Made by a program: the position numbers and the translations under genes. The notes under the pieces were generated by a model, which worked only from the letters and a program-made list of their open reading frames with translations, did not search any database and had not been told where the DNA came from. Positions 3,001-43,206 of a stretch of 43,206 nt of DNA are shown in pieces (position 1 is the first letter of the stretch; each line of letters begins with the position of its first letter). Source of the DNA: an uncultured Verrucomicrobiota bacterium (GTDB taxonomy: Bacteria; Verrucomicrobiota; Verrucomicrobiia; Opitutales; Seribacteraceae); NCBI GenBank assembly GCA_902615835.1, contig CACMQL010000014.1, positions 1 to 43,206 of the forward strand, given 5' to 3'.

Positions 3001-5418
3001 CGTGGTGTCAATAGTGCCACCCAGGCTGATGTTTCCGGAACCTGATCCTGAATTCATACTAATATTTCCGCCAGAAGTAGTTATTCCAGCACTGCCGATT
3101 GAAGATCCTGATATGGTAACGTCCCCGATTTCACCGGCATCTCCAATTGCACCAAGTGAAACTGCTCCGGATCCGGTTAAAGAAACAGTCTCCGTGCTGC
3201 TTCCACGAATTCCTTGCGTGGTGATCGCAGCAGCATTCACAATTAGGTCGCTTCCGTCAGACAAAAGAACATCACCAGTTGCAAATTCCACATTTTGAGA
3301 ATTCGAATTAAAAGTGACATCGGATCCTGCTGTAAGTTTTATTTTCTGACCAGCACCAGAAGAGTAAGTTGCAGCGTTGGTCTTGTATGTATCTCCTGAG
3401 AGGGTCAGTTCATTTGAAGCTATCAGTGAAGTAACTCCGGAAACACCGACCGTGTCAGCATCCCCGATCGAGGGGACTGAAACATCATTCCCAGAAGCGG
3501 ACAAAGAAGTTAGACCACTTGTATCACCAATGATGCCTGAAAATGTTGTATTGCCGGTGCCGGATTCGGTTGTTAGGCCAAAAGCACCATTTATCGTACT
3601 TGCAAATACAACATTTCCAGACGAAGAGGATCCAGTGTTCACTTGAACATTTTTTGTTAAAGAAACGGCCTGATTAAAAGATATGTCCTGACCATTAGAG
3701 TAAACATCTCCTCCCATAGTAATCCCCCCCGATCCTGTTACAGAAACAGCCCCAGAGAGAGATCCAGATGTGCCAATATTGTCATTTATAGCCACAGTGC
3801 CGGTATGGTTAATATTAACTGATCCATTTGTAGATGCTGAATGAGTAAAAATTGCCGAATTTTGAGAGTAATTTACACCACTGCTGGAAAAATCCCCACC
3901 ATTTGTTTGAATCACTGCCCCAACAGTTACATTTCCGGCACTAGTTGAGTCGCTGTCAGCAGTCACGCTGACTCCTAGTTTGCCAACACCACCAACAATA
4001 GTTTGATTGATTGTAACATCATCACCAGCAGTTAATGTAAGTACTGCATCGCCACCGTCGGTCTTAGCAATCGCACCATCCACGATTATGTCAGAGGTTG
4101 CTTGTATGGTAACGCTTGTTCCAGCATTTAGCAAAGTAGTAATTGCTGCAGGTGATACAGTAACATCTCCTGAACCTTCGCTGGAAGCGAGTGTACTGTC
4201 TCCATTTGCATCACCAGCAGCTGCAAGGGTAGTATTAGAACTCGAATAACTGATCGTTACATTCGTTGGGTCTAAAAGCAATTCACCCCCCCCGGAGGGA
4301 CCATCAAGTACGCTAACTCCCCTGTAATAAAGATTATTTTTTCCAGATACTTCAGCAAATCCACCGATTCCGGTACCCACTCCGGTCGCAGAAATACTGC
4401 CCGAGAAAGATGTATCTCCGTCTGACCAAAGAATAACATTTCCACCGTCACCATCTACCAGAGCATCTGCCAAAATAGTACCTGAAACTAAAGTAGAAGA
4501 TGCATTTGTAAGACTGGGGTTAGATCCTTGAAAATCCCCACCTATAAGGACCTCTCCACCACCATTCGCACCGGATGCATCAATGGAACCAAGAACTGAA
4601 ACACTCTCCCCAAGGACTACAGCACTACCACCTTTAGTGGATGCCGATGCAATGTCAATCGAGCCTGAATTCACTGTGGTTCCGCCAAGTAGACCAGATA
4701 AATCGAGAGTGATTTTCCCACCCGCTGCCTCCCCCACTTCCAAAACCGCATCTCCGGAAAGCAAGCCAACATCCCCTCCTGGTGCAGAAATAGAACCGGA
4801 ATTATCAACATTCCCTCCTATGAGAGCGGCAAATTCATCCGCTTTGATTGAACCAAGGTTCATCACCGAGCCTTCAGAATCACCATTGAATGAAATATTT
4901 CCAGAAAGGAATGCGGAGTCTGCAATATCGAGGGAGGATGCAATCAATGCATGCACATCGATCTGAGCATCCGAACCGAATAAAATTCCATTCGGATTGA
5001 TCAGGTAAAAATGACCATTCGCATTCAAGGATCCATGAATTTCACTAAGGTTGTCTCCAACTACACGCGAAAGCATAGCAGCATCGATATTTGGTTGTAC
5101 AATGTCAACCAAGGCACCATTTCCGATGTCAAAAGACTCCCAGTTAACAATCGCAGACTGAGACGATTGTATCATTTGCAATATATCTGAGGACTTTTGC
5201 TGAAGCATAACATCACCGTGCAACACTTCCGATCCACTGGGCAAATTAGCGGCTAAAGCGACACCGGGAGAACCGATTATGAATCCAGTCAGTCCAACTC
5301 CCATAAAAAAAGCCCGAAAGGCTCGATAAAGACCTCTTCCCGTAAAATGGCATGCTTTGCGATTTCCAAGCGACAATAACCGTAAGGATTCAGTGGGGGA
5401 TAATTTAGAATTCTTCAT
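1..5418 (-). CDS. TpsA-like filamentous haemagglutinin adhesin, partial (C-terminus beyond left edge)
   Basis: This is a secreted passenger of a two-partner (type Vb) secretion system. The minus-strand frame starts at ATG 5418 and stays open in the stretches I checked line by line, leaving at base 1, so at least 1806 residues are present. The N-terminus is a long extended signal peptide (about residues 1-57; hydrophobic FFMGVGLTGFIIG, cleavage near ALAA|NLP). A haemagglutination-activity/TPS domain follows at about 58-200, with VNWESFDIG (91-99), QPN (108-110), ANG (133-135) and the hallmark NPNGILFG (141-148). The rest is rich in Gly, Ser, Thr, Asn and Asp with short β-strand-like units and long internal repeats, as expected for a right-handed β-helix. 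The cognate TpsB lies 28 nt upstream, so the pair is probably one operon. No Shine-Dalgarno is evident at the chosen ATG; the start is supported by the signal peptide. The ligand or target is unknown. Confidence 0.9.
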   Translation of the reverse strand, partial: MKNSKLSPTESLRLLSLGNRKACHFTGRGLYRAFRAFFMGVGLTGFIIGSPGVALAANLPSGSEVLHGDVMLQQKSSDILQMIQSSQSAIVNWESFDIGNGALVDIVQPNIDAAMLSRVVGDNLSEIHGSLNANGHFYLINPNGILFGSDAQIDVHALIASSLDIADSAFLSGNISFNGDSEGSVMNLGSIKADEFAALIGGNVDNSGSISAPGGDVGLLSGDAVLEVGEAAGGKITLDLSGLLGGTTVNSGSIDIASASTKGGSAVVLGESVSVLGSIDASGANGGGEVLIGGDFQGSNPSLTNASSTLVSGTILADALVDGDGGNVILWSDGDTSFSGSISATGVGTGIGGFAEVSGKNNLYYRGVSVLDGPSGGGELLLDPTNVTISYSSSNTTLAAAGDANGDSTLASSEGSGDVTVSPAAITTLLNAGTSVTIQATSDIIVDGAIAKTDGGDAVLTLTAGDDVTINQTIVGGVGKLGVSVTADSDSTSAGNVTVGAVIQTNGGDFSSSGVNYSQNSAIFTHSASTNGSVNINHTGTVAINDNIGTSGSLSGAVSVTGSGGITMGGDVYSNGQDISFNQAVSLTKNVQVNTGSSSSGNVVFASTINGAFGLTTESGTGNTTFSGIIGDTSGLTSLSASGNDVSVPSIGDADTVGVSGVTSLIASNELTLSGDTYKTNAATYSSGAGQKIKLTAGSDVTFNSNSQNVEFATGDVLLSDGSDLIVNAAAITTQGIRGSSTETVSLTGSGAVSLGAIGDAGEIGDVTISGSSIGSAGITTSGGNISMNSGSGSGNISLGGTIDTTGNSAATAGTVALTSATLGLTADSSIITDAATTDQAITLPASVTDSGTNPSLTLDSGSANITLNAVGASDNAIGSLTVSEGATVAFAGNVEASSVEITKSTTITLSNGVSIDTNSGNLFLAADTITDSGVTLVSTGGSSGIATFKGSADTTSIGLGTGAGDLSLSETFLDKVPAEYATIQIGGSGQTGAVTLNDSDNSISFANTGLDIYGPVSVAANMTIDTSSGNNPITLRSTINGGYNLSLTAGSGNVNVGGTIGGSTALSALTVSGADLTLSDIGDADTVGVSGVTSATATDELTLSGSTYKTNAATYASAAGDKILLTKGSAVTFTTSDDAVAFNTGNIKLSDGSDLSINTAGGAISAVAIYGTSSEDVTLSTTSGTTNTVSVGTVGSADQINTVAITGSSGITLSGNIVTSDASGNTVTLTGPVTLGGAVSIDTDTTTNDGAVSFSSTIDGAQTLAISSGTANTSVAGAIGGTTKISSFSIPTANDVSLQAVTTVASGTITLGTDSSTRIDGILTLAGNLATDNGDDSAAGALSIYADNVSLNHSSSGGTITLDSDGSSDGAITIVTDTANSGTLSSATAWDDGITITSGTAASDLSSASLANLNALSVNASSVTVGATTTGDGGLSLTSTNGNVTLNGDLATTGETNAGSVTISATSGTIALGGNISVSTDSASGTDQAISLGNITDGATDPTLTLDAGSQNVTLADVGTSTNAIGALTITEAGTVNFNGDVEANGIDVQSATSVVMASGKTVDANGGNLSLASEGLTDNGLTAVLSTGASSASATLKGRTAATTIGIGTGASGASTLDLSEAFLDKIDNFTTIVIGDAAQTGVVTLDDNGAFDLANTGLTINAAGNNGSFVQTSDTSLTLSGSAKALAINGDGDGTNGTTLAANITTNGGIITIDDKITLGGAVTIDSTNSGGTASGANILINSTSGGGTIDGAQNLNIKSGSAGSITLAGSIGATTPIGDLTIDTGSALDLPAVTLASSKNLN
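400..1250 (-). repeat. tpsA internal repeat Y, copy 2
   Basis: This is the second copy of repeat Y in tpsA. In copy 1, Y directly follows X; here about 650 nt (roughly 1250-1905) separates X2 from Y2. The second X-Y module therefore appears to carry an extra passenger segment of about 220 residues. Confidence 0.65.
1905..2350 (-). repeat. tpsA internal repeat X, copy 2
   Basis: This is the second copy of repeat X. It contains the same IGDADTVGVSGVTS motif and then ELTLSGSTYKTNAATY. At DNA level the two copies share runs such as gtgtcagcatcccc (at about 2159 and 3449) but are clearly diverged, so the duplication is not recent. Confidence 0.75.
2350..3200 (-). repeat. tpsA internal repeat Y, copy 1
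   Basis: This segment of tpsA aligns with 400-1250 at an offset of about 1945 nt. Both copies carry a conserved block read as LDLSEAFLDK in one copy and LSLSETFLDK in the other, a TLTLD/SLTLD block, and a shared DNA run gcttggtcggt. Limits are approximate. Confidence 0.65.
3205..3650 (-). repeat. tpsA internal repeat X, copy 1
   Basis: In tpsA this segment encodes a stretch containing IGDADTVGVSGVTS followed by ELTLSGDTYKTNAATY. It recurs about 1290 nt (430 codons) further along the protein with the same order of motifs. Limits are approximate because they were read by eye. Confidence 0.75.
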
Positions 5419-5446
5419 AGAACCGGGGAACGAAGTGACAACTTTT

Positions 5447-6958
5447 TTAGAAGGTATAATTAAGCTTGAAGTGAATTCGTGCATCATTGGAATTGGTGTC
5501 AAGAGTCTCGGTCAAAGGCACTCCAACTAAAAGAGAGAAATCCACACTATTTTCGATGGAGCCATTCATTCCTGCTCCAATACTTTGTAAATCGACAGAG
5601 TCACTCGCCGATGTAAGCTTTCCTCTGTTTGAAAGATGACCGTAGTCATAAAAGAATACATTCTGATAATTGATATCTGCATTCAACAGAGATAAATTTT
5701 CGGATAACATAGAGTATTCAAAATTCAGGCTAACCCCTGAATCTCCGTAGGCCTCGCGTTCTTGGTATCCCCTGATCGTCGAAAGCCCACCCAAGGATTT
5801 TTTGAGGCTAACCGGAAGGTTTCCAGATGATAGTTGACCGTCTAATTTCAGCTTCAAACCCCCTGCAAGAGATTCGAAAGGCTCTGCAATGACTAAGGAA
5901 GCTTTGGGAATCCAAAACCCTTTCTCAAAATTTCCTGATCCCCCCAAATCAGTTTGAACGCCAAGTGACCAAAGACTATCCCCCTCCATTCCCAAAACCT
6001 GAGGTAACTTCCCTTGTATTCCGATCTGTGGAAGCAAGAGAGATAATTCTTCCTCTCCTGCAAAGATACTTGGAGTTCCAACAAATATTTTTGTATTAAG
6101 ATCCAGGTAGCTCAATCCAAAACTCAATGCCAATGAGTCGTCTGCTGCTCCAGCAAGAAGGTGCAAAAGTGAATATCCAGCAAAAAATCCATCGCCGGCA
6201 ATGTCCATATTCAAAGAAGGAGAAACTACATTGTCGTAGTCAGAATCTGAAAAACCTGCATAGAAAGAATGAATAAAATCATCCGACTTCAATTGATAAC
6301 TGGAAAAATAGGAAGAGAGTTGTGAAGAATCAGTTGGATCCAAAGTGTACGAAAAATTGAGGGTATCCTGTGGCTTCAGAACTTCCCAGAATTCAACACC
6401 AATGCGAGATCGCCATCCAGAGGATTGTTCCGTCCCGTCGTTAGAAAAACTGATTGTCGAAATAGCCGGAAACTGGTCTTCCACCTCAAAATTTGCGTTC
6501 ACCACAATTTTTCCATCCGTTCCACGTGTCGGTTTAAGTTTTGAATCAACTTGAATGAAATTGTAACGATTTAAACTCGAGCTTTTAGAGAAAAAAGAAG
6601 AATAATTGAATGGCTCCCCTTTTTTCCAACCCAATTTATTGAGGATTCCCTCCGAACTGAGCTGCTCATTGCCGGAAATATCGACTTCTCCCATTACACC
6701 AGGCAAAACTGTCAAGGCAGAATATTCAGCGGTCTCAGATATTTTCACCTGAGTGAAAGTGTAGCCCTTGTTGACTAAGTAATTCTTTAATCCTTCAGAA
6801 AGATCATTTACGGATAAATTCTCGTTAATGTTAACAAAATTTGTAACCAAGGGATCGAGTTTTTCAGGGGAAAAAACTCTGACTTTTCCCAAAACTACAC
6901 CGGCAATTAATGTAAAGATTATGAGTGCTCTAGTTATGACAAATGATGAAATTTTCAT
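5447..6958 (-). CDS. TpsB outer-membrane transporter (ShlB/FhaC/HecB family)
   Basis: This outer-membrane pore probably exports the TpsA passenger encoded just downstream. The 503-residue product begins with a signal peptide (ITRALIIFTLIAGVVLG). Two POTRA-like segments follow at about 45-95 (VNDLSEGLKNYLVNKGYTF) and 95-170 (GEVDISGNEQL, NRYNFIQVDSKLKP). The rest is a β-barrel with many alternating strands. The conserved motif STIRGYQERE near residue 395 corresponds to the (V/I)RGY tip of loop L6 of Omp85/TpsB transporters. The protein ends in NYTF, a typical C-terminal aromatic barrel signal. It is slightly shorter than many TpsB proteins (about 550-590) because the N-terminal linker/plug helix region is short. 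It lies 28 nt upstream of tpsA on the same strand. Confidence 0.9.
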   Translation of the reverse strand: MKISSFVITRALIIFTLIAGVVLGKVRVFSPEKLDPLVTNFVNINENLSVNDLSEGLKNYLVNKGYTFTQVKISETAEYSALTVLPGVMGEVDISGNEQLSSEGILNKLGWKKGEPFNYSSFFSKSSSLNRYNFIQVDSKLKPTRGTDGKIVVNANFEVEDQFPAISTISFSNDGTEQSSGWRSRIGVEFWEVLKPQDTLNFSYTLDPTDSSQLSSYFSSYQLKSDDFIHSFYAGFSDSDYDNVVSPSLNMDIAGDGFFAGYSLLHLLAGAADDSLALSFGLSYLDLNTKIFVGTPSIFAGEEELSLLLPQIGIQGKLPQVLGMEGDSLWSLGVQTDLGGSGNFEKGFWIPKASLVIAEPFESLAGGLKLKLDGQLSSGNLPVSLKKSLGGLSTIRGYQEREAYGDSGVSLNFEYSMLSENLSLLNADINYQNVFFYDYGHLSNRGKLTSASDSVDLQSIGAGMNGSIENSVDFSLLVGVPLTETLDTNSNDARIHFKLNYTF

Positions 6959-8538: not shown

Positions 8539-11426
8539 GATTTGGAACCGGCAAGTTGAGCCTCAAGACGACTGAGGAAAATACCGGTATTGGTTTCTTG
8601 CTTGGATAATAAAGCGGGAGATCCCTGAAAGACTACTTTTCCACCCATATCCCCTCCTTCGGGTCCAATTTCCACAACATGATCGGCCAATCGAATAACA
8701 TCCAAATTATGTTCGATCACCACCAAGGTATTTCCGGCATCCCGCAAGCGAAACAATAGATCCATAAGTTTTTGCACATCCAACCAATGAAGACCCGTAG
8801 TGGGTTCATCAAGTAAATAGAGAGCACGACCTGCTTGCTTCCGGCTAAGCTCGAGAGAAAGCTTGAGGCGCTGGGCCTCGCCGCCGGAAAGGGTATTGGA
8901 GGGTTGCCCCAATTTTAAGTAGCCCAAGCCAACTGCATCGAGAGTCTCCAACTTTCCAAGGATTGCAGGTTGTTTACAAAACACTTCCTTTGCCTCCTCC
9001 ACGCTCATATTTAAAACTTCAGCGATATTATAACCCCGAAACCTAACCTCCAATGTTTCCCGATTGTAACGCATGCCTTGACAGCTTTCACATGGGATGT
9101 AGACATCCGCAAGGAATTGCATGTCTAATTTGACCATACCGTCACCTTTACACCTCTCACATCTACCTCCAGGCAGATTGAAACTGAAACGGCCCGCGGT
9201 GTAGCCACGCACCCGGCTAAGTGAACATTGGGCGTAGAGCTTTCGTAACTGATCAAAGAGTTTCACAAAAGTTGCGGGGTTTGACCTTGGACTTTTTCCG
9301 ATAGGTGATTGATCCACGCGAACCACCTGATCAAAATTTTGAAGCCCGTCAACGCCTGCACTTTCTCCGGGTATTTGCTTGGACCTGTGCAATTCAAGGG
9401 CAGCGGTTTTGGCAAGAACTTCATTAACAAGGGTGCTTTTTCCTGATCCCGAAACCCCGCAAACGACAGTTAATAAACCGACTGGAAACCCAACATCAAT
9501 TTCCTTCAGATTATTCGCGCTGGCCTTCTTAACCCTGAGAAAACTTTTCGCCGGCTTCTTTGTTTGAAAATCCTTCTCCACCGCCTCTTTGCCCGATAGG
9601 AAATTTCCACTTACGCTAAACTCGCATTCAATACACGCCTTCACATCTCCTGAGAATAATAACTCTCCTCCATTTATTCCGGGTCCCGGGCCCACTTCGA
9701 TCAAGTGATCACAGGCAAGTAGCGTCTCCGCATCATGTTCCACAACCACAACAGTATTTCCCCGGTCACGAAGGCCCTGAACCACGGAAAGCAAGCACTC
9801 ATGGTCTGCCGGATGAAGCCCCACACTCGGTTCATCCAAGGCATAGGTAACGCCGACCAAGCCCATTCCCAATTGAGTTGCCAACCTCGATCTTTGTGCC
9901 TCGCCGCCACTTAGGCTCCTGTAGGCCCGGTCAAGTGAAAGATATCCAAGCCCAACTTCATTTATAAAACCAAGTCTCTGTTCAAGCCCGTTGTATGCAT
10001 CGGAAACTTTTGAAAAAAGTTTCTCATTTTGTTTGTCCGGCTTGAGAAAATTCCATGCATCCCGAGCGGAGAAATGAAGGAAATCACCGAGTGACAAGCC
10101 ATTGACCAAGACAGAACGGGCAAAAGCTGAGAGCCTTTTTCCCTGGCAATCAGGGCAAACTTTACCCTGCTGATATCCTAACAGCTTAGCTCTCAATGTG
10201 TCACTGGAGGTGGTTTTCATGGTATTTTCGAGGTCCTTTAAAATTCCGGGGAAAACTTGCTTCTTCGCCTTACCCCGACCGGCCTGAAGTTTAAGGGTAA
10301 ATTCTCTGCAGGGATCTCCATAAAGTAATAGCTGTCTGATCTCCCGAGGAATCTTCTCCCAAGGCTTTCGATTATCAAACGGAACCTGTTCTGCCAGAGC
10401 TTTGAGAATATTCTTCCTCAAATTGATCATTTTTCTTGATCCCAACCTCCAAGGCTTAACCGCACCCATGCCCAGGGTGAGGGATGGGTCAGGGATGACT
10501 AATTCTTCGCGAAAGGAAAGGATCTCCCCTAACCCACCGCAAGTCTTACAAGCACCATTTGGGTGGTTCCAGGAAAAATGCCGGGGAGTCAGTTTGGGGT
10601 AGACAGTCCCGCAAGTTTCACATGCAAGGCTTTGCGATAAGTTAATCTCCGTGTTTTGCTCTTCTCCATCGATCCAAGCGATGGCCCTTTCCTTTCCCTC
10701 CTTAAAAGCAAGCTCGAGCGAATCAGCCAATCGGGATCGGTTAGATTCATTCATCACAAATCGATCGATCACGAGTTCCACTATAAATTCACGTCCCGCA
10801 CTTTTTGCAGGCAGTAGATCATAGTCATCGAGTCTTTTGATGCGGTTATCTATGCGGACCCGCTGGAATCCCCTGCGTTCCAACGCCTCAAATTCCTCCC
10901 GCAAAATCGAGGCCTTCGCAGTCATGAAAGGAGCAAGTAGAATAACGCGGTTACCCTGACCGACCTTAACAACCTCTGCCACGCAATCATCAAGAGAGCG
11001 CTGGGAAACCCTCGAACCATCCAACGGACAATGAGGAATCCCAACTGTTGCCCAAAGCAACCTGGCGTAATCTGCAATCTCCGTAGCGCTGGCAACCGTG
11101 CTTCTCGGGCCGGAGGAACCCGCATAGGCCTGTCCGATCGCAAGAACGGGTGATAATCCCTCAACGAAATCCACATCCGGTCGCCTTACTTTTTCCAACG
11201 CCTGCCTTGCTTGCGTGGATAAACTTTCGACATATTTACGGTGCCCTTCGGCTGCCATAACATCGAAAACAAGCGAAGATTTCCCAGAACCACTTACACC
11301 CGTTACTCCAATTAATTTACCCCTTGGAAGCTCAACAGTAAGATTTTTTAAATTATTTTCACGGGCACCCTTGATAAAAATATTTCCTTCGTCAAACCCG
11401 GACTTCCCCTTTTTTTTGGCTACCAT
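8535..11426 (-). CDS. uvrA: excinuclease ABC subunit A
   Basis: UvrA is the damage-recognition ATPase of nucleotide excision repair; it loads UvrB. The 963-residue product has two ABC ATPase modules: Walker A GVSGSGKSS (43-51) and GVSGSGKST (about 655), and signatures LSGGEAQRSRLATQL (about 500) and LSGGEAQRLKLSLEL (about 840). The Walker B/D-loops are ALDEPSVGLHPAD and LLDEPTTGLHWLD. A UvrB-binding/insertion region is present (GFQRVRIDNRIKRLDDYD, then VELVIDRFV). Zinc-binding Cys pairs are seen at CETC...CKTC (about 270-300) and CERC...CESC (about 752-780). It is diverged in places (for example AIGQAYAGSSGPRSTV instead of the usual SIDQKTTSRNPRSTV), so it might be a second uvrA paralogue in this genome. 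Confidence 0.93.
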   Translation of the reverse strand: MVAKKKGKSGFDEGNIFIKGARENNLKNLTVELPRGKLIGVTGVSGSGKSSLVFDVMAAEGHRKYVESLSTQARQALEKVRRPDVDFVEGLSPVLAIGQAYAGSSGPRSTVASATEIADYARLLWATVGIPHCPLDGSRVSQRSLDDCVAEVVKVGQGNRVILLAPFMTAKASILREEFEALERRGFQRVRIDNRIKRLDDYDLLPAKSAGREFIVELVIDRFVMNESNRSRLADSLELAFKEGKERAIAWIDGEEQNTEINLSQSLACETCGTVYPKLTPRHFSWNHPNGACKTCGGLGEILSFREELVIPDPSLTLGMGAVKPWRLGSRKMINLRKNILKALAEQVPFDNRKPWEKIPREIRQLLLYGDPCREFTLKLQAGRGKAKKQVFPGILKDLENTMKTTSSDTLRAKLLGYQQGKVCPDCQGKRLSAFARSVLVNGLSLGDFLHFSARDAWNFLKPDKQNEKLFSKVSDAYNGLEQRLGFINEVGLGYLSLDRAYRSLSGGEAQRSRLATQLGMGLVGVTYALDEPSVGLHPADHECLLSVVQGLRDRGNTVVVVEHDAETLLACDHLIEVGPGPGINGGELLFSGDVKACIECEFSVSGNFLSGKEAVEKDFQTKKPAKSFLRVKKASANNLKEIDVGFPVGLLTVVCGVSGSGKSTLVNEVLAKTAALELHRSKQIPGESAGVDGLQNFDQVVRVDQSPIGKSPRSNPATFVKLFDQLRKLYAQCSLSRVRGYTAGRFSFNLPGGRCERCKGDGMVKLDMQFLADVYIPCESCQGMRYNRETLEVRFRGYNIAEVLNMSVEEAKEVFCKQPAILGKLETLDAVGLGYLKLGQPSNTLSGGEAQRLKLSLELSRKQAGRALYLLDEPTTGLHWLDVQKLMDLLFRLRDAGNTLVVIEHNLDVIRLADHVVEIGPEGGDMGGKVVFQGSPALLSKQETNTGIFLSRLEAQLAGSKS

Positions 11427-30809: not shown

Positions 30810-32327
30810 TTAAATTTTATATGCAGTCTTTCGAAGTCTACCAGCCAACATGGCTAATGCGTCATGAACCCGTTCTAAGAGTACTTCATCCTGAACGCTT
30901 AAACTGCTACGCCCGTCCATAAAAACATATCGGATTTTTCCATAGGAATAATTTCTACCGGAAATTTGAAACTCCACCACAAATTCTTTATCTCTGGAAA
31001 AATATCCATTTTGCTGAGGATCCACCCACCTAACAATCTTACCAATAGTAGGATTTTCAATATCAAAATTCGAGCCAAGCCTGCCATTGGTCGAATAAAA
31101 GGTGACCTCTGCTTCATGAAATTGCATACCTTCACTCGCTTTCTTAATACATGACTGCACATTATCAAGTGAGTCCAGCCCAACTACCATACCTTCAGTA
31201 TCTTTGATTGCTTGTTCAATGGATTTTGTGCTTTTTCGATCGTCCATTAATGTAATTAAACCTTCGCCGAAAAACTCAAAACGAAAGTATCCAAGATATC
31301 GTAACAGTATAAAACCACCTAATCCAAAAAAGACAAAAACCGCAAACAATTGATCTCCTTTTCCGAAAGCGGCCGCAATCGCAACCAATGAAGAAGCAAA
31401 AGCCATCGTCCACATGGCAAGCACTGCCTTGCCATGAGATAATCCTTTAGCCATCAATCGATGGTGAAAATGCTCCATATCAGGAGAGAAAGGAGATCGT
31501 CCTCTCATAGTCCTTCGAAAAATAGCGAAAACACAATCCATAATTGGAACAGCAAAAGCGAGGACAGGAAAAATCCCGTCGAGGACATCGCTTTCTCGAG
31601 CACTTGCCAATAATGTTAAACATCCAACAAGGTATCCAAGAGTTAGACTTCCACAATCCCCAAGAAAGATGGAAGCAGGTCGACTGTTGTATACCAAAAA
31701 GCCAAGCAGGCATCCTATCAGAAGGGTCGACATCCAAGTGACACTTGTAATTCCTGCAAGATAACCAACTAATGAAACTGCAAGCAAACCAGCAACGGTT
31801 ATTCCTGATGCAAGACCATCTAATCCGTCAATTAAGTTGATGGCATTTGCCATTCCCACGATCCACAGACAGGCAAAACCAAACGCAACCCACGCAGAGA
31901 AGTCAATCGATCCAAGACCAAGAAACTGGACATTGGAAAATGATAATTCAGCACCCCAAACAACAAGTCCTGCAATCAAAAACTCACCAAAAAGCTTCGT
32001 TTTGGGTGATAAACGCGCTAAATCATCCAAAAAACCAATTGCGAAGATACCAATCGATCCAATGAGTATAGATCCGATAATCGGATTGTTCCCCCACATC
32101 ATTTCACGAATTTGAGGAACAGAAAATCCTCCTAAGCACATTACCGCTAGAAAAGAGAGCAAGATCGCAGCACCGCCAAGTCTTGGAGTGGCTTGTTGAT
32201 GGACTTTACGGGCACGCTGGGGACAATCCACAAACCCCTTACGCAAGGCCAAATGCCTGATAATTGGAGTAATGATACAGGTGAAAATAGCTCCTAAAAC
32301 AAATAAACTGTAAATGGATGGTATCAA
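30810..32327 (-). CDS. WecA/TagO-type undecaprenyl-phosphate sugar-1-phosphate transferase with C-terminal extension
   Basis: This polytopic enzyme would attach a HexNAc-1-phosphate to undecaprenyl phosphate at the inner membrane. The 505-residue product has the PNPT-family motifs KVHQQATPRLGG, GFLDDLARLSPKTK, NAINLIDGLDGLASG, FLGDCGSLTLGYLVG and HFHHRL (metal and UDP-sugar site), plus about ten hydrophobic helices up to residue about 345. WecA/TagO proteins are normally 320-370 residues; here about 150 extra soluble residues follow (from about 355) with β-strand-like segments (EFVVEFQISGRNYSYGKIRY) and a terminal helix. The extension's role is unknown. The start is a TTG. Confidence 0.9.
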   Translation of the reverse strand: MIPSIYSLFVLGAIFTCIITPIIRHLALRKGFVDCPQRARKVHQQATPRLGGAAILLSFLAVMCLGGFSVPQIREMMWGNNPIIGSILIGSIGIFAIGFLDDLARLSPKTKLFGEFLIAGLVVWGAELSFSNVQFLGLGSIDFSAWVAFGFACLWIVGMANAINLIDGLDGLASGITVAGLLAVSLVGYLAGITSVTWMSTLLIGCLLGFLVYNSRPASIFLGDCGSLTLGYLVGCLTLLASARESDVLDGIFPVLAFAVPIMDCVFAIFRRTMRGRSPFSPDMEHFHHRLMAKGLSHGKAVLAMWTMAFASSLVAIAAAFGKGDQLFAVFVFFGLGGFILLRYLGYFRFEFFGEGLITLMDDRKSTKSIEQAIKDTEGMVVGLDSLDNVQSCIKKASEGMQFHEAEVTFYSTNGRLGSNFDIENPTIGKIVRWVDPQQNGYFSRDKEFVVEFQISGRNYSYGKIRYVFMDGRSSLSVQDEVLLERVHDALAMLAGRLRKTAYKI

Positions 32328-32913: not shown

Positions 32914-33001
32914 CTAATCGCGAGTTAAATTCATTATCTGATCGGTAGTCATGTTGACATCAGAAATTCCGGCTACCTGTTTATAATTTGCTGAAAGTCT
33001 T
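32914..33001 (-). pseudogene. remnant of an AbrB/VapB-type antitoxin C-terminus
   Basis: Just upstream of the PIN gene the same-strand frame reads [15 protein letters not shown] then NMTTDQIMNLTRD and stop. The ending MTTDQIMNLTRD matches the toxin-binding tail pattern (T-x-[DE]-[EQ]-I-M-x-L-T-R) of VapB-type antitoxins. The DNA-binding N-terminal half is absent because the frame is closed by a stop inside the end of rfbA. A possible 12-codon mini-frame starts at ATG 32952. The assignment rests on a short motif and on the neighbouring toxin. Confidence 0.55.
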
Positions 33002-33890
33002 ATTTAGTTTCGGATGCATTATTCAAAATCCTCTTCAAATATAGCCCATAACTGGAAGAACCGTGTGCAGTAACTGCTTTTTCCAGCTCATCAGTAGACA
33101 TCCAATTTTTGTAAAAGGCGATTTCTTCCAGGCAGGCGATCTTCAATCCTTGGCGTCGCTCGATTACTTTAACGAATTCCGTAGCCGATGCCAAATTATC
33201 TTGACTACCTGTATCTAACCAAGCCGTGCCTCTCCCCATTACCTCAACCGAAAGATTTCCTGCCTCTAGGTAAACCCGGTTTAAATCGGTAATCTCGAGT
33301 TCCCCCCGGGGAGATGGTTTTAATTCTTTTGCAATCGCACAAACTTGCTGATCGTAAAAATAAAGTCCAGGGACTGCATATTTTGATTTAGGAATTTCGG
33401 GTTTCTCTTCAAGCGACACCGCTTTTCCGGATTTATCAAACTCAACCACTCCGTAGTTTTCAGGATCCGAAACATGATATCCAAAGATCATGGCACCCAA
33501 CTCCTTAGCTTTGGCATCATAGAGGGTTTTCTCCAATTCATGTCCGTAAAAAACATTATCTCCTAATATTAAAATTGATGGAGCATCTCCAAGAAAATGT
33601 TCTCCAATGAGAAACGCCTGAGCCAAGCCATCAGGGTTGGGTTGTCCCTCATAAGAAAAAGAGACTCCAAAACGAGATCCATCACCCAAAAGTTCTCTGA
33701 ACAAAGGTAAATCTCGTGGAGTGGAAATAATCAGAATTTCTCGAATCCCGGAAAGCATTATTATGGAGATCGGGTAGTAAATCATGGGCTTGTCATAAAC
33801 CGGCATCAACTGCTTGCTTACCGCCATCGTCAGTGGGTAAAGGCGGGTTCCTGATCCGCCAGCCAATACGATTCCCTTTCGGTTGGTCAT
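33000..33890 (-). CDS. rfbA: glucose-1-phosphate thymidylyltransferase
   Basis: RfbA (RmlA) makes dTDP-glucose, the first step to dTDP-rhamnose. The product (296 residues) has [84 protein letters not shown] and [16 protein letters not shown] longer frame from 33965 overlaps rfbB and lacks family similarity; ATG 33890 overlaps the rfbB stop as TAATG, indicating translational coupling. It is followed by the decayed toxin-antitoxin remnant. Confidence 0.95.
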
Positions 33891-34942
33891 TAGATGCCCA
33901 GCCTTTCTCGCTGGTACTTCCCTGAAGTCACATTCTCGCACCATTCTTGATGGTTCAGGTACCATTCCACAGTTTGCTCCATACCTTCTTCAAAGGAATA
34001 GGAAGGTTGCCAACCCAGCTCGTTTTTAATCTTAGAAAAATCAATTGCATACCGATGATCATGTCCCGGGCGATCTGTAACAAAAGTCTTCAATTGATTA
34101 TGAGGTGCTCCAATAGGATGGTGCCGATCCAAAATATTGCATAGTGTATCAATAACTTCCATATTTGTCTTTTCTGAAGCTCCACCAATGCAATATGTAT
34201 CCCCCACCCTTCCCTTTCTTAGGACTGATAAAATTCCGGAGCAATGATCTTCCACATGCAACCAATCCCTGATGTTTGATCCGTCCCCATAAATAGGAAG
34301 GCTTTTTCCTTCACAAGCATTCAAAATCATTAAAGGAATCAACTTTTCCGGAAACTGATAAGGGCCGTAATTATTGGAGCAGTTGGTAGTTAGAACCGGC
34401 AGTCCGAAGGTATGATAATACGCACGAACTAAATGATCCGCCGATGCCTTGGAAGCGGAATACGGGCTATTCGGGGCGTATGGTGTAGTTTCGCAGAAAG
34501 CAGGATCTTCAGGTTTTAATGATCCGTATACTTCATCCGTAGATACATGTAAAAAACGAAGGCCTTTTTGACGGTCTTCGTTTTGAGATTGATGATATGT
34601 TTTAAAAGCTTCCAATAATCGTAAGGTACCGACCACATTGGTTTGCACAAAGGGCTCTGGCCCATCAATAGAGCGATCCACATGACTCTCGGCCGCAAAA
34701 TTGACGACTGCGTCTGGTTGATGTTTAGAAAGTAAATTCGATACTAACTCACCATCACAAATATCACCTTTGCAGAAAGCATAACGGGGGTCGCCCTCAA
34801 AATCGGCTAAATTCTCAGGATTACCAGCATAAGTTTGCTTGTCCAGATTGATTACCTTTTCACAATCGGTCTGACCCAACAGTAAACGAATGAAATTGGA
34901 CCCGATAAACCCAAGACCTCCAGTGACTAAAATATTTTTCAT
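33890..34942 (-). CDS. rfbB: dTDP-glucose 4,6-dehydratase
   Basis: RfbB (RmlB) converts dTDP-glucose to dTDP-4-keto-6-deoxyglucose. The 350-residue SDR enzyme has [44 protein letters not shown], the catalytic YxxxK in [12 protein letters not shown], and [20 protein letters not shown]. It overlaps the rfbD-like stop by ATGA (4 nt) and the rfbA start by TAATG, so the three genes form a coupled operon. Confidence 0.95.
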
Positions 34943-35816
34943 ACTCCGACCGGTCTAGCCATTTTTCTTATAGATTCACGCATAGCTTCTTCCACGGGTC
35001 TCATTCCAATACCAGCCTTTACTGCTTTTGTGGTATCCAGCACACAATTAGAACGAGGTGTTTTTGCCGCTTTATTCATAAATTGTTCCTCATCCTCAAA
35101 AAATTTAAATTGTTTATCCGTTACACCTTCTTCTCTCATCCATTCGGTGACCTGATGGGTAGTAACGGAACCAGGATTCGTCATATTGTAAATTCCTGGT
35201 TCGACTTCTTTCTCGAAACATTCAACGCACTTTTGAACAAACTCATCCAAATGAGAAACTGAATTTTCAGCCTCCAGCAAGGAATCGTAATTCAGTAATT
35301 TCTGAAGGTAATTCCTTGGACTTCGCTCATCATTAAAAGGTATCCGTAACCTCCAGATGTAACAGTTTTCTGCACCCTCAAGTACTTCTTCACCTAAAGC
35401 CTTGGTACCACTGTAAAAACTGCAGGGAGGTGATCGAAATGAAAAATTGGGTTCATCTTCTTCTGCCCAACCCTTACCGTCCTGCCTTATTCCGGAATAG
35501 ATACAACCACTGGAAACATGAGCCCATGGTATGTTCAAATCTTCACAAACTTCACGAATAATCCCCGGCAATACCGCGTTTCCAGATAAACATTCTGCTT
35601 TTGCCAGTTCGCAGGCATCCACATTAGGCTTTCCGGTATACCCAGCTGCATTAATCAAAAAACGAATCTTATTTTTATGATAAAATTACTTAGAAGTGCC
35701 TTGTCGTAGTAGTTTAAAGTATCCCTTCCAATTGAAATTAAGTTATTTTTAAGTTTTGGAATTAAGCAAAACTTTTGTCCAACATAACCATTTTTTCCAA
35801 TCAAAAGGTATTTCAT
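34939..35816 (-). pseudogene. rfbD-like dTDP-4-keto-rhamnose epimerase/reductase gene with a frameshift (UER1-like)
   Basis: From ATG 35816 the minus strand encodes MKYLLIGKNGYVGQKF, a Rossmann start with the G-x-x-G-x-x-G NAD(P) motif, then runs into a stop at GTTTTTTGA. Adding one T to the run (plus-strand A run 35657-35662) joins it to RFVFLINAAGYTGKPNVD and the long open frame ending at 34939; the rejoined product is about 292 residues. Typical features are VSSGCIYSG, the catalytic SFYSGTKALGEEVL (YxxxK), RIPFNDERSPRNYLQKLL, YNMTNPGSV and APRSN-like TPRSNCVLD. This layout follows the plant/eukaryotic UER1 type (3,5-epimerase plus 4-reductase) more than bacterial RmlD. Without the repair the NAD-binding half is separated, so it is either inactive or mis-sequenced. 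The N-terminal part is AT-rich, the rest is not. Confidence 0.85.
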
Positions 35817-35877
35817 AAAAATTTATAATAGAAAAATAACGAGAATTTTAAAAAACAAATTTTCGACAAAACCTTAA

Positions 35878-36591
35878 TTAATAATTTGTAAAATATCGTA
35901 GCATACTTGAAAGATGCCAAGAAATATGTCGGATGTTCCTCCTACTGGATCTCCTTGCGTCGTGAATAACTTTCTGGGTAGGATCGTATATTATTGAATA
36001 TCCTTTTTTATGAACACGTTTACATAAATCAACATCTTCAAAGTACATATAAAATCTTTTTTCATCAAAACCATTCACTCCAACAAAAACATCCCTTTTA
36101 ATTAAAATAAACATTCCTGCAACCCAATCAACAATAGATATATCGGAAGGAATAATGCATTTTCGCAAGCGAAGTATTCTTAGAAGTAAATTTAATGGGG
36201 TAGGAAAATCTCTAACACTATCTTCTACAAAACCAAGAGGGTTAACAACTGCAGGAGCAACAATGCCGATACTTTTGTCTTGAAAATGCGATATTAAACT
36301 ATTCATGTTAATTTCGTCAATTGTAATGTCTGGATTTAGAATTACGAAATAGTCTGATTTACAGTGTAGAAATGCTTGATTATGATTTGCTCCAAACCCA
36401 AGAGGATTAACATTCTTAAGTAGTGTAAGTGAAAAGTTGTGTACTTGGTTTATGGGTACAGTTTCGGAAATATTAGAAGTTACGATAACATCAAAAGATC
36501 TTTCTTTAATATTATTTAAGTCTTCAAGAAGGTTGTTAACAAGAATTGCCTGATTATGACTTACAATTGAAAAAGTAAATAAAGTTCTCAT
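35878..36591 (-). CDS. GT2-family glycosyltransferase (rhamnosyltransferase-like)
   Basis: A 237-residue GT-A glycosyltransferase of the WbbL-like type. It has TFSIVSHNQAILVNNLLEDL at the start, NPLGFGANHNQAF and the D-x-D-like FVILNPDITID. The typical FDEKRFYMYFEDVDLCKRVH acceptor region is present, with DWVAGMFILIKRDVF before it. The dTDP-rhamnose genes next door make rhamnose a plausible donor, but this is inferred from context. Composition is AT-rich as in the rest of the island. Confidence 0.82.
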   Translation of the reverse strand: MRTLFTFSIVSHNQAILVNNLLEDLNNIKERSFDVIVTSNISETVPINQVHNFSLTLLKNVNPLGFGANHNQAFLHCKSDYFVILNPDITIDEINMNSLISHFQDKSIGIVAPAVVNPLGFVEDSVRDFPTPLNLLLRILRLRKCIIPSDISIVDWVAGMFILIKRDVFVGVNGFDEKRFYMYFEDVDLCKRVHKKGYSIIYDPTQKVIHDARRSSRRNIRHISWHLSSMLRYFTNY

Positions 36592-38516: not shown

Positions 38517-39650
38517 TTAATAATTCCTAATCCCAACAAATATTAAAGCACCTAGTGGGAAGAACTCGAAGGAATTAAGCGTAATGAAACTTGATGCACA
38601 AAGCAATAAACATGGGACAACATTTTGAGATACTTTGTTTCTTAAAAAAGCTACATATAATAAAAGAATATAGAAAAACATTAAAACAAAACCAGATAAG
38701 TAACCAGCATTGTAAAAAATTGTACTAAGTGAAGATTCTAGAGTAATATATCCGTTGAAATCACTAAGTTGTATTCCTGCAGAAGTTGCTAAACCGAAGT
38801 TGTTCGAAACTACATTAAAATTTTGGAGATTATTTAAAAATAAATCAATCCGAGCAAGTAGAGAACGATCAAGAATATCAAGCCCTCTTGGTGAAAAATT
38901 AACAATAGCCAATATTGATATAATAATTAATAAAAAAGAAATTAAGAAACCTTTTATGTTAGATTTTAAAATTTTGAAATGGAACATTACGCATATAATT
39001 ACAATGCCAATAGCAGATGCAGAGTCAGCAAGGAAAGTTGAATAAGAAAAAATGAATAGTGAACAGTTACACAAACTCGTACTGACTAATTTATTAATGT
39101 GGCATTTTTTTATATATAGATATGAAAAACACATAATAAAAGATGAGGCGGAAGGTAAGAAAAACATTCCAGGTGAACGTAATACACCAAGTTCTTCGCT
39201 GAAATATCTGTGATTAGTGAAAAGGTAAGTTTGTAATAATTGGATTGCAATATTAAAGAACATAAAACTTAATATAAAATATGCATTTTTAGTTGAAAAC
39301 TTTTCCCTGTAATCACTAAACAGAAGACAGCCTCCTACAACGAATGGTAAAATCCATCTTAAACCAAACAATACAGTTAAAAGACCATTACCCAATACTG
39401 TGTACGCTAGAGATGGTAAAATAAATAGTAATATCATAAATATAAAAACAAATTGATTGTTATTTATTTTAATTAAAACAAAATATAAAATTAAGATATA
39501 GTAAACATCTTTGAACACTTTTATGAATGATAAAGTACTAGTTTCAAAACCACTTGCATAAAGATTTAGTGATAACATGTACAAATCAGAGAAAGCAAAA
39601 AAGTAAGATAATAAAATACCATAAAATATTAAATATTTTCTACTTATCAT
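38517..39650 (-). CDS. Wzy-like O-antigen/oligosaccharide repeat-unit polymerase
   Basis: A 377-residue polytopic inner-membrane protein with about ten to twelve hydrophobic segments and no soluble domain beyond a loop near residues 270-310 (RSLLARIDLFLNNLQNFNVV, FNGYITLESSLSTIFYN). This topology, the lack of conserved catalytic motifs and the position among glycosyltransferases fit a Wzy polymerase, which joins repeat units on the periplasmic side. A flippase (Wzx) was considered but the length and the large late loop favour Wzy. It overlaps the GT2 gene upstream by ATGA. Confidence 0.7.
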   Translation of the reverse strand: MISRKYLIFYGILLSYFFAFSDLYMLSLNLYASGFETSTLSFIKVFKDVYYILILYFVLIKINNNQFVFIFMILLFILPSLAYTVLGNGLLTVLFGLRWILPFVVGGCLLFSDYREKFSTKNAYFILSFMFFNIAIQLLQTYLFTNHRYFSEELGVLRSPGMFFLPSASSFIMCFSYLYIKKCHINKLVSTSLCNCSLFIFSYSTFLADSASAIGIVIICVMFHFKILKSNIKGFLISFLLIIISILAIVNFSPRGLDILDRSLLARIDLFLNNLQNFNVVSNNFGLATSAGIQLSDFNGYITLESSLSTIFYNAGYLSGFVLMFFYILLLYVAFLRNKVSQNVVPCLLLCASSFITLNSFEFFPLGALIFVGIRNY

Positions 39651-40564
39651 GTTTTAAACTTCATAAAGTAATTAGTAACACTGTAGGGCAAAATTGTTGC
39701 AAGGATATATTTCAATTTTTTAAAGCAAAATGGATAACTAAATAACTCCATAATAACTTTTAATCTTCTTTTGTTTCTTAAAAATTCTTGAATTTTAATA
39801 TCTTGAATCAAACTGTATAAGAATTTAAAATTTTTGTGTTCCGCTATTTTCTTATTTTTAAGTAAGTCTGTAATTAGAATATTAACTTCATAAATCTTCT
39901 TATCAATCTGTTTAATCGATAAATTGTTACCGTGCCATCTGTAATTAACAACTGCTTCATTTACGCATTTGGTCACAGTTATAGTTGAGAGTCTCAAAAT
40001 TAGGTCCAAATCCCCTATAATTTGAAATCTATTATCAAATTTTCTTTCTAACAAATTAATGGTTTCTTTACTTACCACAATAGAGGAAAGAACGACGCAA
40101 TATCTTTTAAGCAAATCCCCATATATATATCCTTCAGGAAGGCTTTTAAAAATTATTTTATTTTTTCCTTTACCTTGATAATGTAATCGAGCATTGCTGT
40201 ACACTAATCCCACATTTTCAATATCAAACAAATTAATCTGTAGTTTTAGTTTTGATTTATCCCACCAGTCGTCACAATCGAGGAATGCAATGTAATCACC
40301 TTTTGCTTTTGATAAAGCATGATTTCTTGCTGCATAAAGCACGGTATGTTCAGGAGCATAAAAGTATTTTATCCTTTTATCACTATATGATTTTACTATT
40401 TTTGCACTAGAATCAGTTGATTGGTTATCCCAGAAGATAACTTCCCAATTTGTGTAGGTCTGCGATAATACACTATCAATTGCCTCCCGAAGATATTCTT
40501 CTCCATTATAGCAATTCATAATCACACTAACTAATGGAGACGATTTTATTACAGTCTCAGTCAT
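39647..40564 (-). CDS. GT2-family glycosyltransferase, copy A
   Basis: A 305-residue GT-A glycosyltransferase. It has SPLVSVIMNCYNGEEYLREA, VLSQTYTNWEVIFWDNQSTD, AARNHALSKAKGDYIAFLD and the D-x-D motif in LDCDDWW. The first 100 residues are nearly identical to the product of the GT2 gene at 41777-42691, while the later parts diverge strongly. This suggests recombination between the two genes, with different acceptor domains. The sugar is unknown. Confidence 0.87.
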   Translation of the reverse strand: MTETVIKSSPLVSVIMNCYNGEEYLREAIDSVLSQTYTNWEVIFWDNQSTDSSAKIVKSYSDKRIKYFYAPEHTVLYAARNHALSKAKGDYIAFLDCDDWWDKSKLKLQINLFDIENVGLVYSNARLHYQGKGKNKIIFKSLPEGYIYGDLLKRYCVVLSSIVVSKETINLLERKFDNRFQIIGDLDLILRLSTITVTKCVNEAVVNYRWHGNNLSIKQIDKKIYEVNILITDLLKNKKIAEHKNFKFLYSLIQDIKIQEFLRNKRRLKVIMELFSYPFCFKKLKYILATILPYSVTNYFMKFKT

Positions 40565-40664: not shown

Positions 40665-41780
40665 TCAATTTGAAAGGATGTTATGAAAAAGACAGTTGTA
40701 GTTTCGTAATACAGAATCCTCGGTATATAATTCTACAACTTTTCGTGTATCGTAACACAATCTTTTTTTGTAAAGGTCGGAGGTAACTATTTTAATAAAT
40801 TCTTCTTCATCATCTATTTCAAAGAGATAACCATACTTATTTTGTAAAATTTCATAAGGACCAAAATTACAGTTTGATGAAATTACTAAACACTGGTGAG
40901 CAATCGCTTCAACTATAACATTTGATAGTGCTTCAAATTGAGAATTTAACAATAATATGTCGTGAGAAACATAAAAAGGGACTGGGTTATCCACAAACCC
41001 GTGCAGAGTTATATTAGAAGAAAGATTATTTACTGAAACATAATTAAAAATAGAATTATATTCGGGTCCGTCTCCAAGTATTGTAAAAGTGTTATTTTGG
41101 AAACATGTATCAGAAAGTAAGTATTTATGGTACCATTTAACGAGTTGTAAGACCTTTTTTTCTTTTGACAGTCGGCCAACATATAGAAATTTTATTGGTT
41201 CATTTGGTTTAAAGATAAAATTAGTTTTATAATTTGGAGTATTATCTTTTAAAATTATGTTTGGAATATAAAATGATTTCATTTTCATTTGTTCAGTAAC
41301 CGTTTTAGTCTCGGCCTCCAAGACACCTTTTGAAACACACACATTTGCATCAGTATGTTTAATGAATATATTATGCATTTTTACGATTATTTTTTCATAA
41401 ATTGATGCATTTTTAATGAATACATTTCTATTTGTATGTATACTAGTAATAAATCTAGAGTTAATTTTCAATAAATTACATATTAACTTTATAATTATTC
41501 CTGCAAGATTACAGTGAAACATACCAGTAATAACAAAATCTATTTTGTATTTGTACACCACTTTTAATAAAGGAACAATACATTTAGAAACATTGTTTGA
41601 ATTCAAACTCAACACATTCAACCCTTCAGTTCTAGAATAAAGCACGCCATTAGTATGACCACATACAAGATATACATAGTGACCGTACCTATTCAGGGCA
41701 TGGGCTAAATTTATAAAAGCTGTTTCTAGACCACCAACAGTCAAATTTGGTACAAATACTACAATTCTTAACTTTCTCAA
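40665..41780 (-). CDS. GT4-family glycosyltransferase
   Basis: A 371-residue GT-B glycosyltransferase starting at TTG 41780, overlapping the GT2 stop as TTGA. The N-terminus has VVFVPNLTVGGLETAFINLA, the middle FLYVGRLSKEKKVLQLVKWY, and the donor site FEALSNVIVEAIAHQCLVIS with E-x7-E, then NCNFGPYEIL. Donor and acceptor are unknown. Confidence 0.87.
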   Translation of the reverse strand: MRKLRIVVFVPNLTVGGLETAFINLAHALNRYGHYVYLVCGHTNGVLYSRTEGLNVLSLNSNNVSKCIVPLLKVVYKYKIDFVITGMFHCNLAGIIIKLICNLLKINSRFITSIHTNRNVFIKNASIYEKIIVKMHNIFIKHTDANVCVSKGVLEAETKTVTEQMKMKSFYIPNIILKDNTPNYKTNFIFKPNEPIKFLYVGRLSKEKKVLQLVKWYHKYLLSDTCFQNNTFTILGDGPEYNSIFNYVSVNNLSSNITLHGFVDNPVPFYVSHDILLLNSQFEALSNVIVEAIAHQCLVISSNCNFGPYEILQNKYGYLFEIDDEEEFIKIVTSDLYKKRLCYDTRKVVELYTEDSVLRNYNCLFHNILSN

Positions 41781-42691
41781 CCTTTAAAAAATTTATACAC
41801 AGTCAAAGTTTTATATGGTAACAAATATAACAATAAAGAATATATCTTACACTGTAAATTATAATTGGTAAAATTCTTTAAAATCTCTATTTTTAACTTA
41901 TTTCTAAAGTTATATTTAATTAATTTTTTGTAATAGCTATTTTCGATAAATCTGTACGCAATAAAGTCGTATTTTAATATTCTCTCTTTGCGCAGAAGCA
42001 AAAAGTTTTTGAATTCATCTATATGAATAATTTCGTTTTTAGAGTAATTATTTTCGTGTTCACGATATCCTGCTAAATAGTGATTTGATGTGTTCATTTG
42101 AAACTTCATTGATAGTCTTAAAACAATATCATAATCTCCTATAATAGAATAGTTATCATTAAACTTTTCATCGAGTGCCTCAAAAGCAGTTTTCTTTATC
42201 ATTAGTGTCAACATACCCACTTTATAATTTTTAGCTAATTTTCTGAAAACTTTACCATTATAACTTGGTTCTATATATGCTTTTCTTAATACATTTTTAT
42301 TCGTGTCGATAATATTAAAATTACTACACACAAATCCAATATTTTCGTTATTAAATAATTTTAATTGATTTTCCAATTTATTTTCATACCAAATATCATC
42401 ACAATCTAAAAAGGAAATATATTCTCCTTTTGCCTTTTCTAAGGCATAGTTTCTTGCAGCATATAGAACTGCGTGTTTTGGAGCATAATAATATTTAATT
42501 CTTAAATCATTATAAGATTTTATGATTTCAGCACTTGAATCAGTAGATTGATTATCCCAAAAGATAATTTCCCAGTTTGTATATGTCTGTGCTAATACAC
42601 TATCAATTGCCTCCCGAAGATATTTTTCTCCATTATAGCAATTCATAATCACACTCACCAGTGGAGATGGTTCGATTACAGACTCAAACAT
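41777..42691 (-). CDS. GT2-family glycosyltransferase, copy B
   Basis: A 304-residue GT-A glycosyltransferase with SPLVSVIMNCYNGEKYLREA, VLAQTYTNWEIIFWDNQSTD, AARNYALEKAKGEYISFLD and D-x-D in LDCDDIWYENKL. It is a paralogue of the GT2 at 39647-40564 with a near-identical N-terminal 100 residues and a different C-terminal half (FRKLAKNYKVGMLTLMIKK, YSIIGDYDIVLRLSMKF). It starts 5 nt after the aminotransferase stop and overlaps the next GT4 gene. Confidence 0.87.
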   Translation of the reverse strand: MFESVIEPSPLVSVIMNCYNGEKYLREAIDSVLAQTYTNWEIIFWDNQSTDSSAEIIKSYNDLRIKYYYAPKHAVLYAARNYALEKAKGEYISFLDCDDIWYENKLENQLKLFNNENIGFVCSNFNIIDTNKNVLRKAYIEPSYNGKVFRKLAKNYKVGMLTLMIKKTAFEALDEKFNDNYSIIGDYDIVLRLSMKFQMNTSNHYLAGYREHENNYSKNEIIHIDEFKNFLLLRKERILKYDFIAYRFIENSYYKKLIKYNFRNKLKIEILKNFTNYNLQCKIYSLLLYLLPYKTLTVYKFFKG

Positions 42692-42745
42692 GTATCCTAC
42701 TTTAGAATACCAGTTAGTTTTTCTACGATGTATTTCACATCATTT
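42389..42745 (-). repeat. direct repeat: aminotransferase tail + GT2 5' end, copy B
   Basis: This is the second copy of the same direct repeat, here with the intact aminotransferase gene end. Homologous recombination between the copies would delete about 2.1 kb (GT4 plus one GT2 body) and leave a hybrid GT2. Confidence 0.85.
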
Positions 42746-43206
42746 TTACTAACTTCTTCATGTAGAGGTAATGTGAGTAAAGAATGGTAAATACTATCTG
42801 TTACACTCAAGACCGTTTCTGATTTTATACTCTTCTTGAAGAAGGAATGTAAGTGGTTGGGATTATAATGAATTCCCGTTTGTATTCCAAATTGGTTTAG
42901 TGCATTGGATGTGTCATCTCGTGAATTTCCATCTGCTAATATAATTGGAAAAATATGGGGAATAACTTCTTCGTAATCGTGATCTATAAATTTTAACTTA
43001 TCGCTATTTTTAAGTTCATTTGTGTATGCGATTGCAATTGCTTTTCGCTTAACTGCAATTTCGTCAAAACGATTCAACTGCTCGATCCCAATAGCAGCCA
43101 TAATATCACTCATATGGTAGCGCCATCCCTGCTTGCTTACATTAAAATCCCAACTCCTTTGGCCCTTATATCTTTTGTCTGAGTCTTTCTCTACCCCAAG
43201 TAATCT
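42697..43206 (-). CDS. DegT/DnrJ/EryC1/StrS aminotransferase, partial (N-terminus beyond right edge)
   Basis: The C-terminal 169 residues are present and the frame is open to the window end. The visible part shows RYKGQRSWDFNVSKQGWRYH, then MSDIMAAIGIEQLNRFDEIA, VIPHIFPIILADGNSRDD, FGIQTGIHYNPNHLHSFFKK and SLLTLPLHEEVSKNDVKYIV. This is the usual ending of PLP-dependent sugar aminotransferases that make amino sugars (for example 4-amino-4,6-dideoxyhexoses) for O-antigens. The PLP lysine region is outside the window. The encoded sugar product is unknown. Confidence 0.9.
   Translation of the reverse strand, partial: RLLGVEKDSDKRYKGQRSWDFNVSKQGWRYHMSDIMAAIGIEQLNRFDEIAVKRKAIAIAYTNELKNSDKLKFIDHDYEEVIPHIFPIILADGNSRDDTSNALNQFGIQTGIHYNPNHLHSFFKKSIKSETVLSVTDSIYHSLLTLPLHEEVSKNDVKYIVEKLTGILK

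Follow-up and report, generated by a model that had tools for sequence, protein, structure and literature searches.

A gene of the rmlD family in a surface-glycan locus of an uncultured Verrucomicrobiota bacterium is divided between two reading frames, which raises the question of whether the organism has lost the synthesis of dTDP-L-rhamnose or whether the break has another origin. The window analysed here is the whole of contig 14 (43,206 bases), from a 1.82-Mb genome assembled into 91 contigs, which is 60.8% complete with 0.11% contamination. We compared it with the genomes of its relatives, which we take to be marine single cells or metagenome bins.

One rmlD-like gene in two frames

According to the ORF listing, the upstream of the two frames (35655-35816, minus strand; 53 codons and a TGA) starts with ATG at 35816; it is AT-rich and begins with a GxxGYVG nucleotide-binding motif. 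The body of the gene (34939-35658, minus strand) is a frame of 239 amino acids with a TTG start, one base out of the N-terminal frame. Both are open over 31 bases (35655-35685, minus strand), the body frame opening at 35685 and the N-terminal frame stopping at 35655. The body matches PF04321 (RmlD_sub_bind) with 54.4 bits (cut-off 27) over profile positions 56-285, the first 55 positions being missing, and owing to the one-base offset the N-terminal nucleotide-binding part of the profile is not in its frame. The apparent gene therefore lacks its NAD(P)-binding start, as a sequence-only reading of this DNA had proposed. Scanned alone, the N-terminal frame matches PF04321 weakly (positions 1-51, 10.9 bits, E 0.23). 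Against a profile built from 61 homologous N-termini, none of them from the window, it was the top match (E 1.1e-9) among the 948 stop-to-stop pieces of the window of at least 25 amino acids, and the pieces ranked next (E 0.0067 and 0.016) belong to other Rossmann-type enzymes encoded in the window. The N-terminal frame is a real hidden half and not a chance frame. With both frames present and each similar to the family, the proposal of one RmlD/UER1-type gene of about 292 residues split over two frames is borne out. The hidden half is real by the family N-terminus profile, but it is not the usual N-terminus for this body and belongs to another lineage.

The body is similar to a 3,5-epimerase/4-reductase of known structure (PDB 4qqr_A, 118 bits) and to a UDP-L-rhamnose synthase (PDB 7jid_A, 70 bits), the third structure match being a marginal one to a designed protein (E 0.00088). 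The equivalog cut-off for the classical dTDP-4-dehydrorhamnose reductase (TIGR01214, 224 bits) was not reached by the body, which scored 47.7 bits when scanned alone. There is no separate rmlC in the operon, and a search for PF00908 in the 61%-complete genome gave one match below cut-off (22.6 bits, cut-off 27), on another contig. From the relation to 4qqr and the lack of rmlC in the operon, we predict that the gene encodes a bifunctional 3,5-epimerase/4-reductase of the NRS/ER (UER1) type. It shares with those enzymes the similarity of its body, but differs from them in being bacterial and in having an N-terminus that is out of frame and of another lineage. The enzyme is probably dTDP-linked because the gene adjoins rmlA and rmlB.

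A mosaic with a sharp junction

We compared the window by blastn with 12 loci from 10 genomes, picked from the 27 of 57 genomes that had a match. In 10 of the 12 loci, similarity to the relatives' rmlD-rmlB-rmlA operon ends at window positions 35660-35665, a junction without strand that coincides with the start of the conserved INAAGYTGKPNVDACE motif; the remaining two, G022:C10 (L046) and G001:C5 (L048), run past it. In bins of 100 bases, identity to seven junction-ending loci is 69-91% in the bin at 35500 and 37-50% in the bin at 35700, while identity to G022:C10 is 94-98% throughout 35500-36399. The body has a GC content of 41.9%, against 25.9% for the N-terminal part and 30.7% for the 600 bases upstream of it. 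The lower N-terminal value is not special by itself, nor decisive alone, because the intact genes of G026 and G022:C21 show such a drop too (34-35% versus 44-45% in their bodies). Relatedness changes as well: compared with G010, the nearest intact relative, amino acid identity is 92% in the body and 24% in the N-terminus, and in four intact pairs with bodies 86-90% identical the N-termini are 69-76% identical. Comparison of 23 intact genes with one another (253 pairs) gave a trend of N-terminal on body identity, with a residual s.d. of 7.1 and a lowest residual of -19.6. The mean residual of the window is -20.3 with all 23 genes and -23.6 with the 17 whose bodies are at least 70% identical (single values +1.3 to -31.8), the last few codons of its N-terminus being read after the frame change, which gives a small bias against the window. 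The mean residual of G022:C10, with its N-terminus read in its own continuous frame, is also -20.3. This sharp change of both relatedness and composition at one point, present in an independent assembly as well, argues that the rmlD-like gene is a mosaic formed by recombination. Set against homologues in related genomes, as had been suggested, the two halves form one gene shared with G022:C10, but body and N-terminus differ in lineage.

The same mosaic in relatives, and its decay

In G022:C10, from a related species, 131 of the first 135 bases of the N-terminus are identical to those of the window and the junction is the same, with four changed codons in the N-terminus, three of them non-synonymous. 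The upstream glycosyltransferase family 2 gene (35878-36591, minus strand), the first of an AT-rich glycan cassette, is 93% identical there at the amino acid level. The reading frame of G022:C10 is continuous across the junction and is interrupted further on by in-frame stops, two in the rmlD body and two in rmlB. A third species (G001:C5) has an rmlD remnant with stops and frame changes beside a WecA-like gene, whose counterpart in the window (glycosyl transferase family 4; 30810-32327, minus strand) lies downstream of the rml set. The DNA of G001:C5 matches the window across the junction (34877-35815) at 78%, and in its 19-kb stretch rmlA has no match and rmlB is matched over roughly its first 65 bases only.

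The G022 and G001 counterparts are thus themselves broken. Between the window and G022:C10, 12 indels are listed over the aligned stretch, of which four at the ends were set aside; five of the eight internal ones are not multiples of three, two lying in rmlD and three between genes, and of the two in rmlD one shortens the window and the other G022:C10. Body codons specific to the window comprise 14 synonymous and five non-synonymous changes, and those specific to G022:C10 comprise 14 and 17 (one a stop). The window body has no stop and a dN/dS of 0.08 to G010. Since the body still looks constrained, the break, if real, would be recent, or tracts of the body would have been renewed by recombination from a working copy; we consider the gene probably a young pseudogene. 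Identity between the window and G022:C10 in bins of 300 bases swings from about 63% to 100%, and we read the drops as a sign of several recombination tracts in the locus.

A second rml set in the same genome

Gene order was searched in 34 sequences, namely 32 loci of relatives, contig C17 of the window's genome and the window. Of the relatives' loci, 26 have the order rmlD-rmlB-rmlA-metK-ahcY; they represent 18 genomes, many loci being the same place twice, and obgE comes next in all eight that reach that far. Of the six loci without this order, three are cut off too soon to show it, two both represent G022:C10 and one is the G001:C5 remnant. Contig C17 carries rmlB, rmlA, metK, ahcY and obgE in the conserved order, with rmlB and rmlA intact and respectively 98% and 97% identical in amino acids to those of G022:C21; the contig starts inside rmlD, 15 codons before its stop. 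The window has its own intact rmlB (dTDP-glucose 4,6-dehydratase; 33890-34942, minus strand; TIGR01181, 501 bits, cut-off 365) and rmlA (glucose-1-phosphate thymidylyltransferase; 33000-33893, minus strand; TIGR01207, 467 bits, cut-off 361), which are 82% and 86% identical to those of C17, so that the window set is a second one. G022 likewise has two sets, one in the conserved order and free of stops (C21) and one decaying in the glycan locus (C10). By this comparison, the window rmlD would be a spare copy in a second rml set within the glycan locus. A search of the contigs of the 61%-complete assembly did not recover the rest of the C17 rmlD, as can be expected from that completeness and from the contig end at this point, and we infer that this rmlD is intact and its operon complete.

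The explanation that we favour, and regard as probable, is that the rmlD of the window is a redundant mosaic copy lying where an exchanged AT-rich cassette ends; it would probably be a pseudogene of recent origin, and the rmlB and rmlA next to it are intact. Its probability overlaps in part with those of the alternatives, as loss of rhamnose synthesis could hold besides. An AT-rich glycan cassette would have ended in the N-terminal part of an rmlD-type gene of another lineage, and recombination at INAAGYTGKPNVDACE would have joined it to an rmlD body belonging to this genus, with rmlB and rmlA next in line. The mosaic would have arisen in a common ancestor and its enzyme may have worked at first. 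With the conserved operon supplying the same product, it would no longer have been needed, and each lineage would have lost it differently: by a one-base frame break in the window, by stops in G022:C10 and by heavy erosion in G001. The explanation builds on the observed junction, the mosaic in a second species with a remnant in a third, and the second, conserved operon in the same genome; overall, ordinary recombination and decay at the margin of a surface-sugar locus seem to account for them.

Sequencing error as an explanation of the break

Alternatively, the cell may carry a complete, functional mosaic gene, and the one-base difference may be an error of sequencing, amplification or assembly. 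The constraint on the body (14 synonymous versus five non-synonymous window-specific codons) and the intact rmlB and rmlA of the window would agree with this, as would the draft nature of the relatives' genomes, which come from uncultured cells or metagenomes, the 91-contig genome of the window being likely alike. The sequence-only reading had placed the break in a run of six Ts and suggested a homopolymer error there. However, the run is six Ts long both in the window and in the frame-continuous G022:C10, so the difference in length is not in the run; the alignment shows the window lacking one base relative to G022:C10 within the overlap, N-terminal to the run, and the proposed site does not hold. 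The breakage of the G022 and G001 copies, and the restriction of the frame-changing indels of the stretch to rmlD and the spaces between genes, also speak against an error, which, at another place in the stretch, we consider unlikely but conceivable.

Source of the N-terminal part

The N-terminus of the window is nearest to those of G042 (40%) and G037 (37%), which belong to other families of the order, and this points to another lineage of the same enzyme family as its source. Outside the three mosaic carriers the best-scoring match is G037, 48% or 40% identical depending on the search. We found no donor in the 57 nearest genomes, in 372 of the order or in 387 of the phylum, sets that overlap and in each of which the window's own genome is counted. 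Eight stretches of viral contigs matched a pattern, and none of the eight encodes a relative.

A broader reading is that the cofactor-binding N-terminal part is an exchangeable module: with the near-invariant INAAGYTGKPNVDACE motif as a ready crossover, glycan cassettes would repeatedly enter with an N-terminus of their own, landing on an rmlD body with rmlB-rmlA and leaving mosaics of which some work and some decay. In two further relatives, AH-709-B10 and AM_1811, N-terminal identity falls below what the bodies would predict (mean residuals -9.9 and -7.0, the lowest two among the 23); this is suggestive only, and we hold this generalization to be quite unlikely.

Rhamnose synthesis and other uses of the RmlB product

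Loss of dTDP-rhamnose synthesis, which the sequence-only reading had offered first, is rejected as the leading reading in view of the C17 operon and seems very improbable. In its favour, only one rmlD body of this type occurs in the 61%-complete assembly, and the conserved-operon rmlD of G017, next to metK, is disrupted by internal stops (G017:C11:19039-19906; L050 ~9040-9913) with rmlB and rmlA intact and stop-free, no other match being found in that 92%-complete genome. Against it, the conserved operon is present on C17, where rmlB and rmlA are intact and rmlD, cut by the contig end, retains its last 15 codons, and the absence of the remaining part can be a limit of the assembly. A classical RmlD on contig C5 (L159) was considered as a replacement and not counted, as its 150 bits are below the TIGR01214 cut-off. 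The window carries a warning in this respect: where a genome is partial, a disrupted glycan gene may be a redundant copy and should not be taken as evidence that the sugar is lost.

The intact rmlB and rmlA of the window may also feed dTDP-4-keto-6-deoxyglucose to other sugars. Contig C22 of the same genome encodes two FdtA-like proteins, a hexapeptide acyltransferase and a DegT aminotransferase, which is presumably a set for dTDP-3-amino-3,6-dideoxyhexoses, sugars whose synthesis begins with the product of RmlA and RmlB. Close to the end of the window contig, a DegT/DnrJ aminotransferase represented by its C-terminal part (42697-43113, minus strand) is a possible user of the RmlB product. Retention of rmlA and rmlB with loss of rmlD would fit such amino-sugar use, but in G022:C10 rmlB is broken as well. 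C22 also encodes a CDP-glucose 4,6-dehydratase (447 bits, cut-off 278), so another route is possible.

Expression from two frames, as a fused enzyme by a frame shift in the overlap or as a split one by a TGA stop and TTG restart, is conceivable inasmuch as the TGA that ends the N-terminal frame and the TTG start of the body ORF overlap, and both parts have kept family similarity. Such expression, including the frameshifting or slippage proposed earlier, is nevertheless extremely unlikely, given that no canonical -1 heptamer (X_XXY_YYZ) is in phase within the 31-base overlap (35685-35655), that the layout is not conserved, G022:C10 needing no shift in its one frame across the junction, and that the redundant operon removes the need. 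Slippage at the T run in particular was rejected on account of the absent heptamer together with the same run in the continuous frame of G022:C10.

Likeness to rml junctions of enteric bacteria

Work on Salmonella clusters for galactose (Gal)-initiated O-antigens describes recombination junctions inside rml genes, GC being lower towards the variable genes (PMC3715488). The window resembles these in that a variable glycan region is exchanged, the junction lies within an rml gene and GC is lower on the variable side. It differs from them in that its two sides have 24% versus 92% amino acid identity to one relative, that the crossover falls on a short conserved motif and that the resulting gene is broken in frame. 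For E. coli group 3 capsule clusters, rmlC has been named as a recombination junction (PMC10433991), which likewise makes an rml gene the joint of a capsule cluster; the gene there is a different one, the exchange is within the Enterobacteriaceae, and the excerpted part of that paper does not mention a broken rml gene. The case in the window is an event of this kind in another phylum. An uncultured Verrucomicrobiota lineage would thus change its surface glycan by a route already described for enteric bacteria, with a rhamnose gene as the putative joint for exchange of an AT-rich cassette and the junction resolved to a few bases.

Further features of the locus and its relatives

In the genome RIS_SAG_30, rmlB fragments with stops (L069 3036-3702) lie just upstream of a stop-free rmlD-rmlB-rmlA set and appear to be another remnant of a second rml copy. 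In the window, identity to G022:C10 by bins is 96-100% at 27.0-30.6 kb and 97-99% at 31.8-33.0 kb, dropping to 75-90% in the WecA-like gene (30810-32327) and to 63-74% at the start of rmlB (34500-35100). Two glycosyltransferase-like ORFs (39647-40564 and 41777-42691) are closely similar, by eye, over their first ~100 residues and are perhaps a duplication within the AT-rich cassette; cross matches between them were seen in L046 (G022:C10). At the other end of the window, positions 1-5502 (minus strand) hold a single open frame of 1834 amino acids that runs off the contig end, and the plus-strand ORFs over the same positions, whose translations abound in P, V, A, E and S, are likely to be its shadows.
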